From the NCBI GenBank assembly GCA_903970465.1, contig CAJCIO010000038.1, positions 1-64,000 on the forward strand: DNA of 64,000 bases, written 5' to 3'. Shown here in pieces: positions 3,990 to 9,101 of this stretch. The notes under the pieces are model-generated. The model was not told the origin of the DNA, searched no databases, and was given only the letters and a program-made list of their open reading frames with translations. How positions within the stretch are numbered: position 1 is the stretch's first letter; every line of letters starts with the position of its first letter. The stretch comes from Gammaproteobacteria bacterium. Its GTDB lineage: Bacteria > Pseudomonadota > Gammaproteobacteria > Pseudomonadales > Pseudomonadaceae. The translations under genes were made by a program, and so were the position numbers.

Positions 3990-4242
3990 GGGAGCCCTTC
4001 CTCTTTACAGTATGCCGAGAGCCACGGGTGGCTTGAACAGTACAATTTGAACACGGTATAGACGCTTGGGAAACCGGCGGGTCACCGCGGCAGGCGCAGA
4101 TACACAGGGAAACGCTGTGCCACGGGGCTCTCGACGCCTGTCTGAATACCCGGTAGCCAGGGGGCTTGCCTGCGATTACCGCGCCAGATGCAGCCGAAAG
4201 ACCATAATCGGCGCTGGACAGATTGGCCACTCGCCGCCGCTT

Positions 4243-4285
4243 GACTCAACAGAAAGTTACGGTTTGTGTAACTTTCTGTTGAGTC
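4243..4285. repeat. Downstream boundary hairpin of the AbiE cassette
   Basis: A perfect 18-bp inverted repeat (4243-4260 and 4268-4285) with a 7-nt loop, total 43 nt. It starts 10 nt beyond the abiEii stop codon. Its arms match the hairpin at 5752-5794 at 17 of 18 positions per arm, and the one difference is compensated on the opposite arm. It is not followed by a U tract on the minus strand, so it is not a standard intrinsic terminator. Confidence 0.9.
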
Positions 4286-4295
4286 TTTACGATTT

Positions 4296-5192
4296 CTACA
4301 TTTTGAAGTTTGCTTCACCGCTATCGTTATTAAGCGTCCTTTCCGAGATCGCAGCCAAATCTTTGATGTGTCTCACGAGCACGGTCCAGAAAGCGGGTTC
4401 GTTGACCGTCTGCACAACAATGTCGATGGGCAGAAACCGGCTCATTTCCTTACGAAAATCAGCCACCACCGAGACATCGTCCTCCAGCAAGGCGGCGCGC
4501 GTATTGAACAATTCGAGAAACCGCTGTGGCTCGCAGCGGTGATCCGCAAGTTTCTTCGCCAGCAGTTCCATCGTCGGCTTCACGCCCTGCTGACGTAGCC
4601 ACAACAGGTCCCATAGATCGCGATTCTTGATCCTGTTCGGACGCAATGCAAAGGCCACGATCTTGTCCACATAGATCTCTTCCCGCGCTTGTGCCTGCAG
4701 TATCAACCCGCTAGTACCCATATCGACGCCGTACAGGTTGAGCAGCAACATAGGCTGCGGCATGTAGCTGGGAATTGAGCACACATCAATGTTGATACGT
4801 TGAGCGGGCAGATCTGGCCGACCGGGACGCGTCTGCACTTTGAGTTTCCAGGTATCAACGTTGCCGATATCCCGAACGGGGGCGCTCACACTCACCTCAA
4901 GTCCGTATTTGCCCTTGAGTTGTTCCACTAATATGCGCGCAAGATCCATCAGGCTTTCCCGGTCGAAATCAGCCCCACCGGTAAAATCAAGATCCTCGCT
5001 CAACCGGCTGGAACCGTAGCAAGCCCTCAGGCAGGTTCCTCCGATAAATGTCAGTTGCGCAAGCATCCCGGCGGAACTCAACGCGAGCATGATGTCGTGA
5101 TGCAGAAACTCCTTCTCGACCACCACGCGCAACGGCGCCAAGGCCTGCTGATTATTCAGCGCATCGTCTACCAACTGATCAAACAAACTCAT
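4296..5192 (-). CDS. AbiEii-type nucleotidyltransferase toxin
   Basis: A 298-aa member of the nucleotidyltransferase AbiEii/AbiGii toxin family, the toxin half of a type IV toxin-antitoxin and phage-abortive-infection system. The polymerase-beta-like signature is intact: GG at residues 51-52, SEDLDF with Asp67 and Asp69, a third acidic residue Asp136 (INIDVC), and the downstream family motif with Lys177, Asp192 and Asp195 (YVDKIVAF, RDLWDLLWL). Family members transfer nucleotides to target RNA and stop growth. It overlaps the upstream antitoxin gene by 14 nt, and a GGAG sits inside the antitoxin's last codons, so translation is probably coupled. Low-GC codons are more common here than in neighbouring genes, a sign of transfer. 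Confidence 0.88.
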   Translation of the reverse strand: MSLFDQLVDDALNNQQALAPLRVVVEKEFLHHDIMLALSSAGMLAQLTFIGGTCLRACYGSSRLSEDLDFTGGADFDRESLMDLARILVEQLKGKYGLEVSVSAPVRDIGNVDTWKLKVQTRPGRPDLPAQRINIDVCSIPSYMPQPMLLLNLYGVDMGTSGLILQAQAREEIYVDKIVAFALRPNRIKNRDLWDLLWLRQQGVKPTMELLAKKLADHRCEPQRFLELFNTRAALLEDDVSVVADFRKEMSRFLPIDIVVQTVNEPAFWTVLVRHIKDLAAISERTLNNDSGEANFKM

Positions 5193-5745
5193 CTACGACA
5201 CTCCAGTCAATCAGGTCCAAATCCCGTTTTGCAGCGCGCATGTCCCGAAGCGCTTGCGGCGCAGTGGCGCGCCATAGACGACAGCGGGCGTCATAGCTCA
5301 GGTGGCTTTGCAGGTCCTCGGGCTTCTGCCGTGTGTGGACAAACTCAATCGTGCCCCACCGCCCACACGAGATGCGGTTGCTGCGACCCGAGGACATCAG
5401 CGTGATCCAACTGATGGGGATCTGCGAGATGATGCCGCAATCGCTGAGTGCCGTTTCGAGGCTGATGTAGTTGAACTGTCTGGCTCGCAATCGGGCCGCA
5501 GCATGGAACAGCAGCAGACCGTCGTTCGGCGCAACAGGCTCGAACAGATAAAGGCCTCTACACACGCGGATCAGCGGCCCCTCTGCAGCGATACGTGCCA
5601 GCAGGGTCCGATAAGCACCGTCAGCTAAATCAGGCACTAGCGCCCGCAGATCATCGGGTGTGAACAGGTATCGCTCAGGGCTGGCCAGCTTCGCAAGATG
5701 CTGCAGCAGGCGCCGCATCGGCTGAACAGGATCAAGGCTCGGCAT
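5179..5745 (-). CDS. AbiEi-type antitoxin / autorepressor
   Basis: A 188-aa protein directly upstream of, and overlapping, the AbiEii-type toxin. Its N-terminal 70 residues look like the winged helix-turn-helix of AbiEi antitoxins, and the RVCRGLYLF segment resembles the wing region of the family. The C-terminal part matches the general AbiEi layout. In studied AbiE systems the antitoxin represses its own promoter by binding inverted repeats and neutralises the toxin without forming a stable complex. Here a perfect 19-bp inverted repeat ends 6 nt before the ATG at 5745 and is the obvious operator. A TTG two codons upstream overlaps the repeat edge and is a less likely start. No strong ribosome site is seen. 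Confidence 0.8.
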   Translation of the reverse strand: MPSLDPVQPMRRLLQHLAKLASPERYLFTPDDLRALVPDLADGAYRTLLARIAAEGPLIRVCRGLYLFEPVAPNDGLLLFHAAARLRARQFNYISLETALSDCGIISQIPISWITLMSSGRSNRISCGRWGTIEFVHTRQKPEDLQSHLSYDARCRLWRATAPQALRDMRAAKRDLDLIDWSVVDEFV

Positions 5746-5751
5746 GGTCAA

Positions 5752-5794
5752 GACTCAACAGTAAGTTACACTTACTGTAACTTACTGTTGAGTC
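5752..5794. repeat. Upstream boundary hairpin / likely AbiEi operator
   Basis: A perfect 19-bp inverted repeat (5752-5770 and 5776-5794) with a 5-nt loop, total 43 nt, immediately upstream of the abiEi start. Known AbiEi antitoxins bind inverted repeats in their promoter, so operator function is a reasonable inference. It has the same length and almost the same sequence as the hairpin that closes the cassette at 4243-4285. It also lies 27 nt downstream of the stop of the acetyltransferase gene. Confidence 0.85.
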
Positions 5795-5821
5795 ATTTCA
5801 AAACAGGTGGCGGCAAACACC

Positions 5822-6511: not shown

Positions 6512-6766
6512 ATGCCTGCATCATTCGCACACGAACTCCCCGAAACCCTGCTCATCATCCCCGCCGGCCGCACCGGCCATCCCATCGACGCCATCACCGC
6601 CGCCTGCACCCGAGCCGAGGCCGTACTCGACATGCTCATGCTGCATTTCCGCCTGCCCGCCGAAGCCGAGCGGTTATCGGAAACCCAAGTGAGCAATGTG
6701 CTGTGGGATGTGCAAGGCACGCTGGGGCTGATCCGGACGTTAGCGCTGCATCAATCGGCGGCGTAG
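6512..6766 (+). CDS. Small hypothetical protein, DUF6124-like in layout
   Basis: An 84-aa protein with a good ribosome site (GGAG, 8 nt before the ATG at 6512). A hydrophobic patch (TLLIIPAGR) is followed by ITAACTRAEAVLDMLMLHF and a helical C-terminus with ALHQ. The layout resembles the small, Pseudomonas-restricted family of cytosolic helical proteins of unknown function that are often found as orphans. It is divergent from the acetyltransferase gene with about 210 bp between the starts. No catalytic motif, membrane segment or signal peptide is visible, and I do not infer a function. Confidence 0.6.
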   Translation: MPASFAHELPETLLIIPAGRTGHPIDAITAACTRAEAVLDMLMLHFRLPAEAERLSETQVSNVLWDVQGTLGLIRTLALHQSAA

Positions 6767-6854
6767 CCGGTCAATCAAAGGGAGCACGTATCTGGCGCCG
6801 GATGCGTGCACCCAAGTTTCAAGCATGGGCAAAGCCATACTTTTCCGCCTTCAG

Positions 6855-6927
6855 CTAACAATTTTGACGACAAAAATCCATTTTCTAACAATAATGAAGC
6901 ACCGCTAACAATTTTGAAGACAAAAAT
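6855..6927 (+). repeat. Three-copy 15-bp direct-repeat array upstream of fic
   Basis: Copies start at 6855, 6885 and 6905 and share the consensus CTAACAATTTTGAAG with 0-2 mismatches. Two copies continue with ACAAAAAT. The last copy supplies the GAAG ribosome site and runs up to the fic ATG at 6926. The spacing of 30 then 20 bp is close to whole helical turns, so the copies lie on one DNA face. The same spacing recurs in the array after the gene (8469-8533). Confidence 0.9.
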
Positions 6928-8461
6928 GAACGACTTTCTGGGCTATAGCTGGCTTGCCGAACGCTACCAGATCACTCCGTGCCAGCCCCTGCAGGTCGTC
7001 AGCCTGATTAACAGTCGGCGCCAGGATGTCGAAATCAATGGCGTGATCAATCAATCCTTCCCGCCCTCCTATCGCATCGAGCCAACGCTGGACGATCATT
7101 TGACGTTCGCCTTCAAGAGAGAAGCTTTGCATCTGGAATTTCTCGCTCGACTGTTTCAAGCCATTGATGCAGCCGACCTCGTCAACTGGATCACCGCCGA
7201 GCCCACCAGCCAGTACGCTCGCAAGGCCTGCTTTTTCTACGAGTGGCTCACCGGCCGTTCGCTGGATCACCCGGGCCTGAATCGCGGCAATTACGTCGAT
7301 GCCATCAATGGTGATCAATATCTCACCTGCACTCAACCTACCCGCAACACACGCTGGCGAGTGCTCGACAATCTGCCCGGCACGCCCGACTTTTGCCCAA
7401 TGGTCCGGCTGACGCCGACGCTCAACGCGCTGATCGACTACGACCCCGGCGCGGCGCTTGACCAATTGGGCGTTGAATACGGTGAGGACACGCTGATTCG
7501 CAGCGCCGTGTGGCTGACCATCAAGGAGAGCAAGTCCAGCTTCGCTATCGAGCATGAGCAGCAGCAGGTTGATCGCATCCAGCGATTCGCCGCTGTCATG
7601 GAGTTACGCTGTGGTAATGGCAAGCCGCCGCTGGCCCCGCAACAGCTGACCGACCTGCAATCGGCAATACTCGGCCCTAAGGCCCTGTCGTATGGTATGC
7701 GCTCATCGCCGGCATTTGTCGGACAAACCGTGGGCTTTCAAAACGTGGTCAATTACCTGGCCCCACATTGGGAACAGGCTAGCGGGATGCTGCAGGGCTT
7801 GCAGCAATTCGAGCAGCGTACTGCCGGCCGAGATTCGATCCTGCGCGCCACCTGCCTGTCGTTCGGCTTTGTCTATATCCACCCGCTGGGGGATGGCAAC
7901 GGCCGGGTATCGCGCTTTTTGATCAACGATACCCTGCGTCGCGACAAGGTCGTCCCCGCGCCTTACATTCTGCCGGTATCGGCCACCATGCAGAACGCGC
8001 GCTTCCTGCCGCAGAACTACGATCAGACTCTCGATGAGTTTTCCCGTCCGTTGATGAACAACATCCGCCCCGATCTGCACTTCGACCAGCGCCAGGTCTA
8101 TGCCGATGGTGTGGAGTCCAACCTGCGCTTCGATGGCTTCGACACGGTGGCACCAGCGTGGCGCTATATCGACATGACAAAGCATGCGGAGTACATGGCG
8201 CGGGTGATACGCCACACCATCGAAGAGGAAATGCGCTCCGAGGCGTTGATTCTGCGGGATCACCTGCGGGCCCGCGAGGCTATCAAGGAGATACTCGAGG
8301 GCCCCGACCAGGACATTGATCGCATCATCCGCTCGATTCACCAATCCAAAGGGGTGATGAGCGGCAAACTGCGCAAACAATACCCACAACTGCTGGATGA
8401 AACGCTGAGTGGCGAAATCGTCAGGGTGGTGAGGGAGCACCTGTCATGGAGCCAGGGATAA
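6926..8461 (+). CDS. Fic-family AMP-transferase
   Basis: A 511-aa Fic protein, the family that usually transfers AMP from ATP to a hydroxyl on a target protein. The Fic core is HPLGDGNGRVSR at residues 319-330; the common Phe at position 3 is Leu, but the catalytic His319 and the phosphate-binding GNGR are present. An inhibitory helix of class II type precedes the core: S205-F-A-I-E209-H210, where the usual Gly/Asn after Glu is His. Residues about 435-505 look like a helical, possibly winged-helix tail with basic surface. The frame is open back to 6806, but that extension only translates the repeat array. ATG 6926 with GAAG upstream is the better start. No Fic-partner antitoxin gene is adjacent, as expected for class II. 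Target and role are unknown. Confidence 0.88.
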   Translation: MNDFLGYSWLAERYQITPCQPLQVVSLINSRRQDVEINGVINQSFPPSYRIEPTLDDHLTFAFKREALHLEFLARLFQAIDAADLVNWITAEPTSQYARKACFFYEWLTGRSLDHPGLNRGNYVDAINGDQYLTCTQPTRNTRWRVLDNLPGTPDFCPMVRLTPTLNALIDYDPGAALDQLGVEYGEDTLIRSAVWLTIKESKSSFAIEHEQQQVDRIQRFAAVMELRCGNGKPPLAPQQLTDLQSAILGPKALSYGMRSSPAFVGQTVGFQNVVNYLAPHWEQASGMLQGLQQFEQRTAGRDSILRATCLSFGFVYIHPLGDGNGRVSRFLINDTLRRDKVVPAPYILPVSATMQNARFLPQNYDQTLDEFSRPLMNNIRPDLHFDQRQVYADGVESNLRFDGFDTVAPAWRYIDMTKHAEYMARVIRHTIEEEMRSEALILRDHLRAREAIKEILEGPDQDIDRIIRSIHQSKGVMSGKLRKQYPQLLDETLSGEIVRVVREHLSWSQG

Positions 8462-8468
8462 GGTCCAG

Positions 8469-8533
8469 CTAACAATTTTGAAGCAAAAACCCCAATCCCT
8501 AACGATTTTGAAGCCCCCCTAAGCATTTTGAAG
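8469..8533 (+). repeat. Three-copy 15-bp direct-repeat array downstream of fic
   Basis: Copies start at 8469, 8499 and 8519. They match CTAACAATTTTGAAG with 0, 1 and 2 mismatches, in the same orientation as the upstream array and with the same 30/20-bp spacing. The last copy overlaps the final codons and stop of the gene on the opposite strand. The array begins 8 nt after the fic stop codon. Confidence 0.9.
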
Positions 8534-9010
8534 CACCCCACCCCCTTGAAAGTGCCCCAACGAAAACCCATCCACAGCCGCCACTTTGCCGCGCCACAAC
8601 ATGCCGTCAGGCGACACCGGCCCTTGATGCCCGGTATACACCCGCGCATCGCGCACATGGATGTACTGCGCGGCCGGGTCTTCCTCTTTACCCGTCGATT
8701 CATCAAACCCACGCACCAGCGCGCGGATGCTCTCGGCATCGCTGCTGCCTGCATCGGCGAAGGGTTTGGCGAACTGTTCCGCCAGCAGATGGAAATAGGT
8801 CTGGGGCGATATCAACAAGCCCGACACCAGATGCCCGCGCACCGACAAGGTGATGCCTACTTCCAGATTGGCCTGGCTGGCCACGCGCACGAACCATTGC
8901 AGCAACCAGTCGACCTGGCGGCCATCCCACTCCATCTTGGTGAACGCGGGGTCGGCAAGGGGTTCGGGAGCAGGCGGCGCGGCGGCGAGTTTGGTGTTGA
9001 TCTTGGACAT
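8519..9010 (-). CDS. GvpU-like (gas vesicle accessory) family protein
   Basis: A 163-aa cytosolic protein. The central segment WLLQWFVRVASQANLEVGIT, followed by VRGHLVSGLLIS and YFHLLAEQFAKPF, resembles small proteins labelled GvpU in proteobacteria. YIHVRDARVY and MLWRGKVAAVDGFSLG are further family-like blocks. Pseudomonads do not make gas vesicles, and no other gvp gene is present, so the name marks homology rather than function. A good GGAG precedes the ATG at 9010; an upstream in-frame start is less likely. The last five codons and the stop are encoded inside the third repeat of the array at 8469-8533, so the original C-terminus may have been replaced when that array arrived. Confidence 0.55.
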   Translation of the reverse strand: MSKINTKLAAAPPAPEPLADPAFTKMEWDGRQVDWLLQWFVRVASQANLEVGITLSVRGHLVSGLLISPQTYFHLLAEQFAKPFADAGSSDAESIRALVRGFDESTGKEEDPAAQYIHVRDARVYTGHQGPVSPDGMLWRGKVAAVDGFSLGHFQGGGVLQNA

Positions 9011-9101
9011 GGTGGAGCTCCGTTCCATAGATTGACTTCCTTTCTATAGAACACCCCGGGGCAGAGGGCAATGCATGGCGCGACCGGCGGGCAATCTGCA
9101 G

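Follow-up and report, generated by a model that had tools for sequence, protein, structure and literature searches.

Arrays of three sites spaced 30 and 20 bp as a candidate operator architecture of fic genes, placed on both sides of the gene in one clade

Why does a fic gene lie between two equal arrays of three direct repeats? The question is raised by a 64,000-nucleotide stretch of DNA (hereafter the window; positions 1 to 64,000 of contig CAJCIO010000038.1, assembly GCA_903970465.1, from a gammaproteobacterium of the family Pseudomonadaceae), in which six copies of the 15-mer CTAACAATTTTGAAG flank the gene, three on either side and all on the + strand. An earlier note on this sequence offered two readings, paired operators for looping repression, perhaps bound by the C-terminal tail of Fic itself, or the duplicated ends of a cassette that inserts or leaves as a unit. 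The observation is real and larger than first noted: the arrays appear to belong to an operator architecture of a whole fic family, of which the clade containing the window has an unusual both-sides layout. On balance, we think that the arrays are probably autoregulatory operators, bound most likely by the C-terminal domain of Fic, with proposed looping between the upstream and downstream arrays in the window clade.

The six copies, with zero to two mismatches and in one orientation, and the spacing of 30 and then 20 bp in both arrays were all recovered as first described (Table 1). No seventh match was found in the window at up to three mismatches, and in 100 dinucleotide shuffles 0.36 matches were expected by chance, with a maximum of two, so that six were never reached. 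The two 68-bp array stretches align without gaps at 78% identity. The upstream array starts at −71 from the fic ATG and, as the earlier note had stated, runs into the likely ribosome site of the gene, its third site ending with GAAG 6 bp 5' of the ATG; the downstream array starts 7 bp past the stop codon. No further array was found in the window's own genome, where two extra matches with two mismatches are single sites on other contigs. Window-type arrays as dispersed genome repeats were rejected, such arrays having been found only around fic among 398 Pseudomonas-genus genomes (E ≤ 0.01).

The spacing extends well beyond this locus. On reading, the upstream regions of further homologues contain arrays of the same kind in other letters, and a degenerate 10-mer composed after inspecting the sequences matched 76 times upstream (1.05 expected), in 30 loci, and never on the opposite strand. 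Because the 10-mer was composed after inspection, a motif-free spacing test was used against circularity. Of the 676 spacing pairs compared, 30/20 took first place upstream of fic: the best three 12-mers agreed at 24 or more of 36 positions in 30 of 58 loci, whereas the other pairs were found in a mean of 0.40 loci and at most in 17, for pair 23/30, which is generated by neighbouring arrays. Downstream of fic the 30/20 pair was seen in three of the 58 loci, the window and its nearest relatives Pseudomonas sp. LS-2 and Pseudomonas sp. Bc-h, and in none of the 58 in each of two coding controls. A weight-matrix scan, which misses the LS-2 downstream array owing to its middle site, returned an upstream triple with a score of at least 12 in 26 of 30 loci (absent from L023, L035, L037 and L039) and no triple scoring at least 8 on the reverse strand of 138 kb. 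Locus L015, at a short contig end, was left out of all three scans. A local direct-repeat test detected no similar flanking arrays at 29 further homologue loci.

Relatives of the window Fic were found in 68 of 298 Pseudomonas-genus genomes (protein search, E ≤ 1e-30) and in 264 plasmid records (E ≤ 1e-5); a protein-based scan of genome contigs gave 41 pattern matches, none of them a relative. In ten distant homologues (28-33% identity) picked from the list of that protein search, lag 50 was detected in eight (0.40 expected) and lag 30 in five (0.47 expected), again with other site letters. Thirteen plasmid loci from other genera, chosen out of the 264 records, included six with lag 30 (0.43 expected) and four with lag 50 (0.50 expected). 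The fic family is characterised by triplets of sites at 30/20 spacing, whose letters vary by fic clade. That positions 0, 30 and 50 are retained although both the site letters and the protein (to ~30% identity) change strongly suggests protein-DNA contact of fixed geometry. In two Psychrobacter plasmid loci (L122 and L128) a recombinase family gene precedes fic. A repeat unrelated to the arrays is present at L022, where a perfect 19-bp direct repeat, about 200 bp either side, brackets fic together with the upstream array region.

The layout of the arrays depends on the clade. Members of the main Pseudomonas clade (46-48% identical) have tandem upstream arrays that begin −138 to −143 and −65 to −66 relative to the ATG, site 3 of the nearer one reaching into the ribosome site; 13 of 21 loci showed both arrays, seven showed one and one showed neither. 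The sister homologue on plasmid pMPPla107 carries one array at −73 and, at −643, a second, weaker one (14.5). In the phylogenetic tree, the window, LS-2 and Bc-h genes are joined with a support of 0.954 and the pMPPla107 gene comes next (0.999); the downstream array is therefore a trait of one clade. The earlier note had named arrays missing around close homologues as a finding that would speak against its proposal, and such absence was encountered for the downstream array only. From the layouts we infer that the downstream array may be the displaced distal array of the main clade, a point on which the letters do not decide.

The nearest Fic homologue, 62% identical and found in LS-2 and Bc-h, has both arrays at the same spacing at a different chromosomal site, where array-fic-array lies between two convergent MCP-like genes (MCP1 and MCP2; the label is our reading of the sequences). 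An array pattern scan of a species-level genome collection returned only these two strains. When the window and LS-2 arrays were combined into a profile, it matched arrays in two of 398 Pseudomonas-genus genomes (E ≤ 0.01), the same two, and these arrays bracket fic in both. An exact two-site pattern applied to 298 genus genomes was too strict to recover even the window, and a second one recovered the window alone among 99; the array consensus had no blastn match in plasmids and the array pattern none in viral contigs. The window and LS-2 arrays differ at 15 of 90 positions within sites and at 21 of 40 within spacers (p = 8e-5), the sites being conserved while the spacers diverge. LS-2 and Bc-h differ at 0/65 positions of the upstream array and at 4/65 of the downstream array, of which one is in a site. 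By comparison with the downstream array, the 31-bp gap that separates it from the fic stop codon (12/31 differences; p = 2e-4) and the fourfold sites of MCP2 (22/80, or 27.5%, with 471 bp compared; p = 9e-4) are strongly diverged. This conservation bears on the possibility that the downstream array is functionless, either what is left of a deleted further fic copy or a duplicate carried along passively. Its restriction to one clade would suit such an origin, and scars consisting of arrays and a truncated fic do exist (in genome G208, before a HigB-type toxin gene), but the 30/20 spacing has been kept in two lineages with Fic proteins 62% identical, the sites are conserved relative to the spacers, and the array has outlasted the divergence of adjoining DNA in LS-2 and Bc-h. 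We regard a functionless downstream array as unlikely.

The same comparison reveals a unit with a history of its own. At fourfold sites, fic differs between LS-2 and Bc-h (L045 and L046) at 20 of 242 positions (8.3%) versus 109 of 321 (34%) for MCP1, and the last difference lies 11 bp 5' of the left array, giving a sharp left edge at the array; the low divergence relative to the neighbours and the position of this edge suggest that lineages once exchanged the fic unit, whatever the means. One such means would be a mobile one-gene cassette with the arrays as recombination sites, array-fic-array excising and inserting as a circle through an enzyme encoded elsewhere, with a single array left or used. 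In line with that proposal, the part of MCP2 compared is also far more diverged than fic, a bracketed unit with the same ends occupies two unrelated sites (beside gvpU and between the MCP genes), and array-fic-array is a circular permutation of the array-array-fic of relatives. The stretch between the fic stop codon and the downstream array is, however, highly diverged, unlike one exchanged block, and since the arrays of the main clade are both upstream, arrays are not simply the ends of an element. The space between the arrays is filled by fic, and no recombinase gene was seen in the unit, although the remaining reading frames there, all overlapping fic, were not run against protein families. 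Window-type arrays occurred only with fic in the 398 genomes, so no clean target site was seen. A single array at the gvpU-like locus of strains lacking fic, which the earlier note had suggested looking for, was not encountered: with GvpU present in 10 of 95 genomes and GNAT in 371 of 398 as anchor genes, none of the 29 other GNAT loci compared was a syntenic empty site, each matching at GNAT only.

The LS-2 site offers a view of loci from which fic is gone. Seven of 30 MCP2 loci (347 genomes had a match) were compared, and the four syntenic relatives (G068, G085, G152 and G195) had no intact fic at this site. G068, without fic, retains a single decayed array-length relic exactly between the MCP genes (13.7 bits with profile R1, E = 0.0043; p = 0.0005), G085 has a 3' fic remnant and one site, G152 a weak array trace (p 0.009-0.055) and G195 none. 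The relic of G068 is what a cassette would leave, but ordinary deletion between repeats explains it equally, and in view of the evidence on both sides we hold the cassette to be quite unlikely. Of the proposal that the arrays are cassette ends, the bracketed unit at two unrelated sites and the single relic in one fic-less relative are thus what remains, against the lack of a visible recombinase, of an empty window site and of main-clade arrays on both sides of the gene. Arrays at the LS-2 site are decayed where fic was lost (L060 and L058), as expected if they are parts that serve fic.

Arrays elsewhere were sought with a main-clade array profile in 14 chosen genomes, seven with and seven without a fic relative at E ≤ 1e-30. 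Eight of the 14 had a match at E ≤ 1, the fic-linked matches of five of the seven fic-bearing genomes (G021, G208, G049, G129 and G017) being found by construction because they supplied arrays to the model. Three fic-less or fic-truncated relic places were among the matches inspected. In G208 (L146 1501-2400; C5:134466 onward), two arrays and ~50 bp of a fic start precede the HigB-type toxin gene (PF09907), beside which is a probable partner gene with no Pfam match; this toxin pair may have come under Fic-operator control and is a possible recruit. In G129 (L155 1899-1942), an array relic without fic is followed by what appears by eye to be the end of a higB gene, and in G002 (L149 1501-1556) an array relic stands without fic. 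Four further weak matches (E 0.28-0.73) fell outside those inspected, one of them (G117) just before a fic start. Among the matches inspected in the 14 genomes there was no intact second target, so the array regulon may be fic alone.

Which protein reads the arrays? The cleanest contrast is in G049, which has two fic paralogues: four main-type and no group-3-type motifs precede one, and none and four, respectively, precede the other. Such different sites are not predicted for a shared host factor, and the paralogue- and clade-specific letters suggest binding by the protein that each gene itself encodes. Main-type hits in G021, G201 and G269 numbered 1, 0 and 0 before the distant paralogue versus 3, 4 and 4 before the main one. 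Operators bound by a host or otherwise unlinked regulator would be the alternative. It is favoured by Fic being only the presumed binder and by a C-terminal domain that, taken alone, has no recognisable DNA-binding match, but it does not account for letters that differ between the G049 paralogues and shift with the fic clade; in addition, no other gene is consistently linked in the annotated loci (by eye), and arrays apart from a complete fic are few in the 14 genomes, the three inspected being relics. An unlinked regulator therefore appears rather improbable to us.

The AlphaFold model of full-length window Fic (predicted local distance difference test, pLDDT, 81.7) aligns with SoFic of Shewanella oneidensis (3zec, 3zcn and 3eqx; Z 17.1-17.6) over model residues 153-510, reaching the C-terminus, although SoFic is shorter, 14% identical in sequence and superposed at a root-mean-square deviation (rmsd) near 7, and with CbFic2 (8cil chain B; Z 16.3, 296 residues, rmsd 4.6) over residues 19-507. 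Both full-length alignments span the C-terminal helical domain, whereas the top structural match, 4rgl (Z 17.8), covers residues 153-439 only. The candidate inhibitory motif SFAIEH departs from [ST]xxxE[GN] at its last position, which is H rather than G or N; its S and E are invariant in 17 aligned proteins.

On the DNA side, site 1 holds the predicted −35 hexamer, site 2 the predicted −10 and site 3 the likely ribosome site, so binding should repress. Each array would offer direct binding sites at three positions, 0, +30 and +50; Fic, binding through its C-terminal helical domain, would occupy the upstream array over the predicted −35, −10 and ribosome site and shut fic off. The main Pseudomonas clade has two tandem arrays before the gene, and in the window clade one array would have moved behind it, where a Fic oligomer could bridge both arrays and either form a loop around the gene or stop read-through. 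Two operator clusters apart on the DNA are also used by looping repressors such as lac, gal and pLS20 Rco; the window shares the two separated clusters, but those systems have dedicated repressors, and looping here is a proposal drawn from the layout. Of the two readings first offered, paired operators is the better supported, on account of the family-wide, fic-linked 30/20 arrays, their position over the predicted promoter and ribosome site, and their conservation while the spacers diverge. The location of the repeats before a possible toxin gene might also recall the repeat antitoxin RNA of type III toxin-antitoxin systems. The repeats of those systems are contiguous, whereas these are short 15-bp sites at 30/20 with unconserved spacers, and with the predicted promoter inside the upstream array most of that array would stay untranscribed. 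With non-contiguous sites and diverged spacers, the arrays were rejected as a type III system, and any action as RNA is hardly credible.

Several observations weigh against autoregulation by Fic. The predicted promoter is a weak consensus match (a scan of 6700-8700 gave two matches versus 1.0 expected in shuffles), and the C-terminal domain searched alone had no fold match and no credible sequence match, so a DNA-binding role for it is presumptive. The 58 loci share ancestry, so that their counts are not independent, and four of the 13 plasmid loci (L117, L124, L125 and L126) are near background upstream (16/36). The paralogue contrast is clean in G049 only; it is weaker in G021, G201 and G269 because the distant-type pattern matches poorly there (1, 0 and 1). 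When LS-2 is compared with Bc-h, the conservation of array sites exceeds that of fic fourfold sites only modestly (1/90 vs 20/242 differences, p = 0.02), and that of whole arrays hardly does (4/130 vs 20/242, p = 0.07), since fic has itself diverged far less than the genes around it. The downstream array is confined to the clade of the window, LS-2 and Bc-h, at two chromosomal sites. Nor is decay universal where fic is broken: ahead of a truncated fic start, G208 keeps a well-formed pair of arrays (52.7 and 33.4 bits), which a complete fic 4 kb away may keep in use. Finally, the operator of CccR, a known autoregulating Fic protein, is an inverted repeat (PMC9755527), while the window sites are direct repeats in one orientation.

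CccR of Yersinia pseudotuberculosis is a class II Fic with a C-terminal DNA-binding domain that represses its own promoter near −35/−10 through one pair of inverted 10-bp repeats 26 bp apart; the window protein would resemble it as a presumptive class II Fic with a candidate C-terminal DNA-binding domain and a predicted overlap with the promoter, and the available text describes neither a three-site direct array nor a second array (PMC9755527). For CbFic2 of Coxiella burnetii, DNA binding is reported to alter enzyme activity, as shown with random DNA, and the available text describes no specific operator (PMC10628234). The inhibitory motifs compare as SFAIEH in the window, SARIEG in CccR (PMC9755527) and TSAIEG in CbFic2 (PMC10628234). 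In the open-licence literature searched, neither direct arrays with three sites nor a fic gene with arrays on either side was found described. A bolder reading, in which Fic on its own 30/20 arrays, ahead of the gene and past it, would be held inactive or in an AMP-removing state, the DNA acting as the antidote of a one-gene toxin, strikes us as distinctly improbable. If true, the enzyme would be released or activated when the array DNA is lost or copied, phage attack being one such occasion, and the whole family would consist of DNA-gated switches with site letters co-evolved with the protein. Autoregulation by Fic, by comparison, bears on the silencing of a widespread group of Fic candidates and predicts that these enzymes are their own repressors, for which paralogues with different sites in one genome are natural specificity controls. 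The window Fic matches PDC-S24, a candidate defence family of PADLOC, over almost its whole length (E = 1.1e-170; residues 2-506 against profile positions 2-489 of 497); the name PDC-S24 was not found in the open-licence papers searched.

Table 1. Positions of the arrays, the fic gene and associated features in the window
Feature	Position	Strand	Basis or remark
Upstream copies of the 15-mer	6855 (1 mismatch), 6885 (2), 6905 (0)	+	
Downstream copies of the 15-mer	8469 (0 mismatches), 8499 (1), 8519 (2)	+	
Upstream array (A2): sites 6855-6869, 6885-6899, 6905-6919	6855..6919	+	69.7 bits with profile R1, itself built with both window arrays
Downstream array: sites 8469-8483, 8499-8513, 8519-8533	8469..8533	+	64.7 bits with profile R1, likewise built with this array
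Putative −35 hexamer TTGACG, within site 1	6864..6869	+	consensus scan only
Putative −10 hexamer AACAAT, within site 2, 17 bp past −35	6887..6892	+	consensus scan only
GAAG of site 3, likely ribosome site of fic	6916..6919	+	sequence; LS-2 has GAGG at the equivalent position
fic, 511 amino acids, Pfam Fic PF02661	6926..8461	+	start codon 6926-6928, stop 8459-8461
SFAIEH, residues 205-210, class II-type inhibitory motif, N-terminal to the Fic core	7538..7555	+	sequence, alignment
Fic motif HPLGDGNGR, residues 319-327	7880..7906	+	fits class II motif HPxx[DE]GN[GK]R
C-terminal helical domain, residues 461-505, candidate DNA-binding part	8306..8440	+	AlphaFold models
GvpU-like neighbour, convergent with fic	8519..9028	-	NCBIfam NF041667; stop codon inside the last downstream repeat

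In the window, the array-fic-array unit sits between the GvpU gene and a small gene that has no Pfam or NCBIfam match and that we take to be DUF6124-like. Elsewhere in the window, a 52-bp inverted repeat (4242-4293 and 5744-5795, 86.5% identical) tightly flanks an AbiEi/AbiEii pair on the − strand (4296-5751), which looks as if it were an inserted unit itself.
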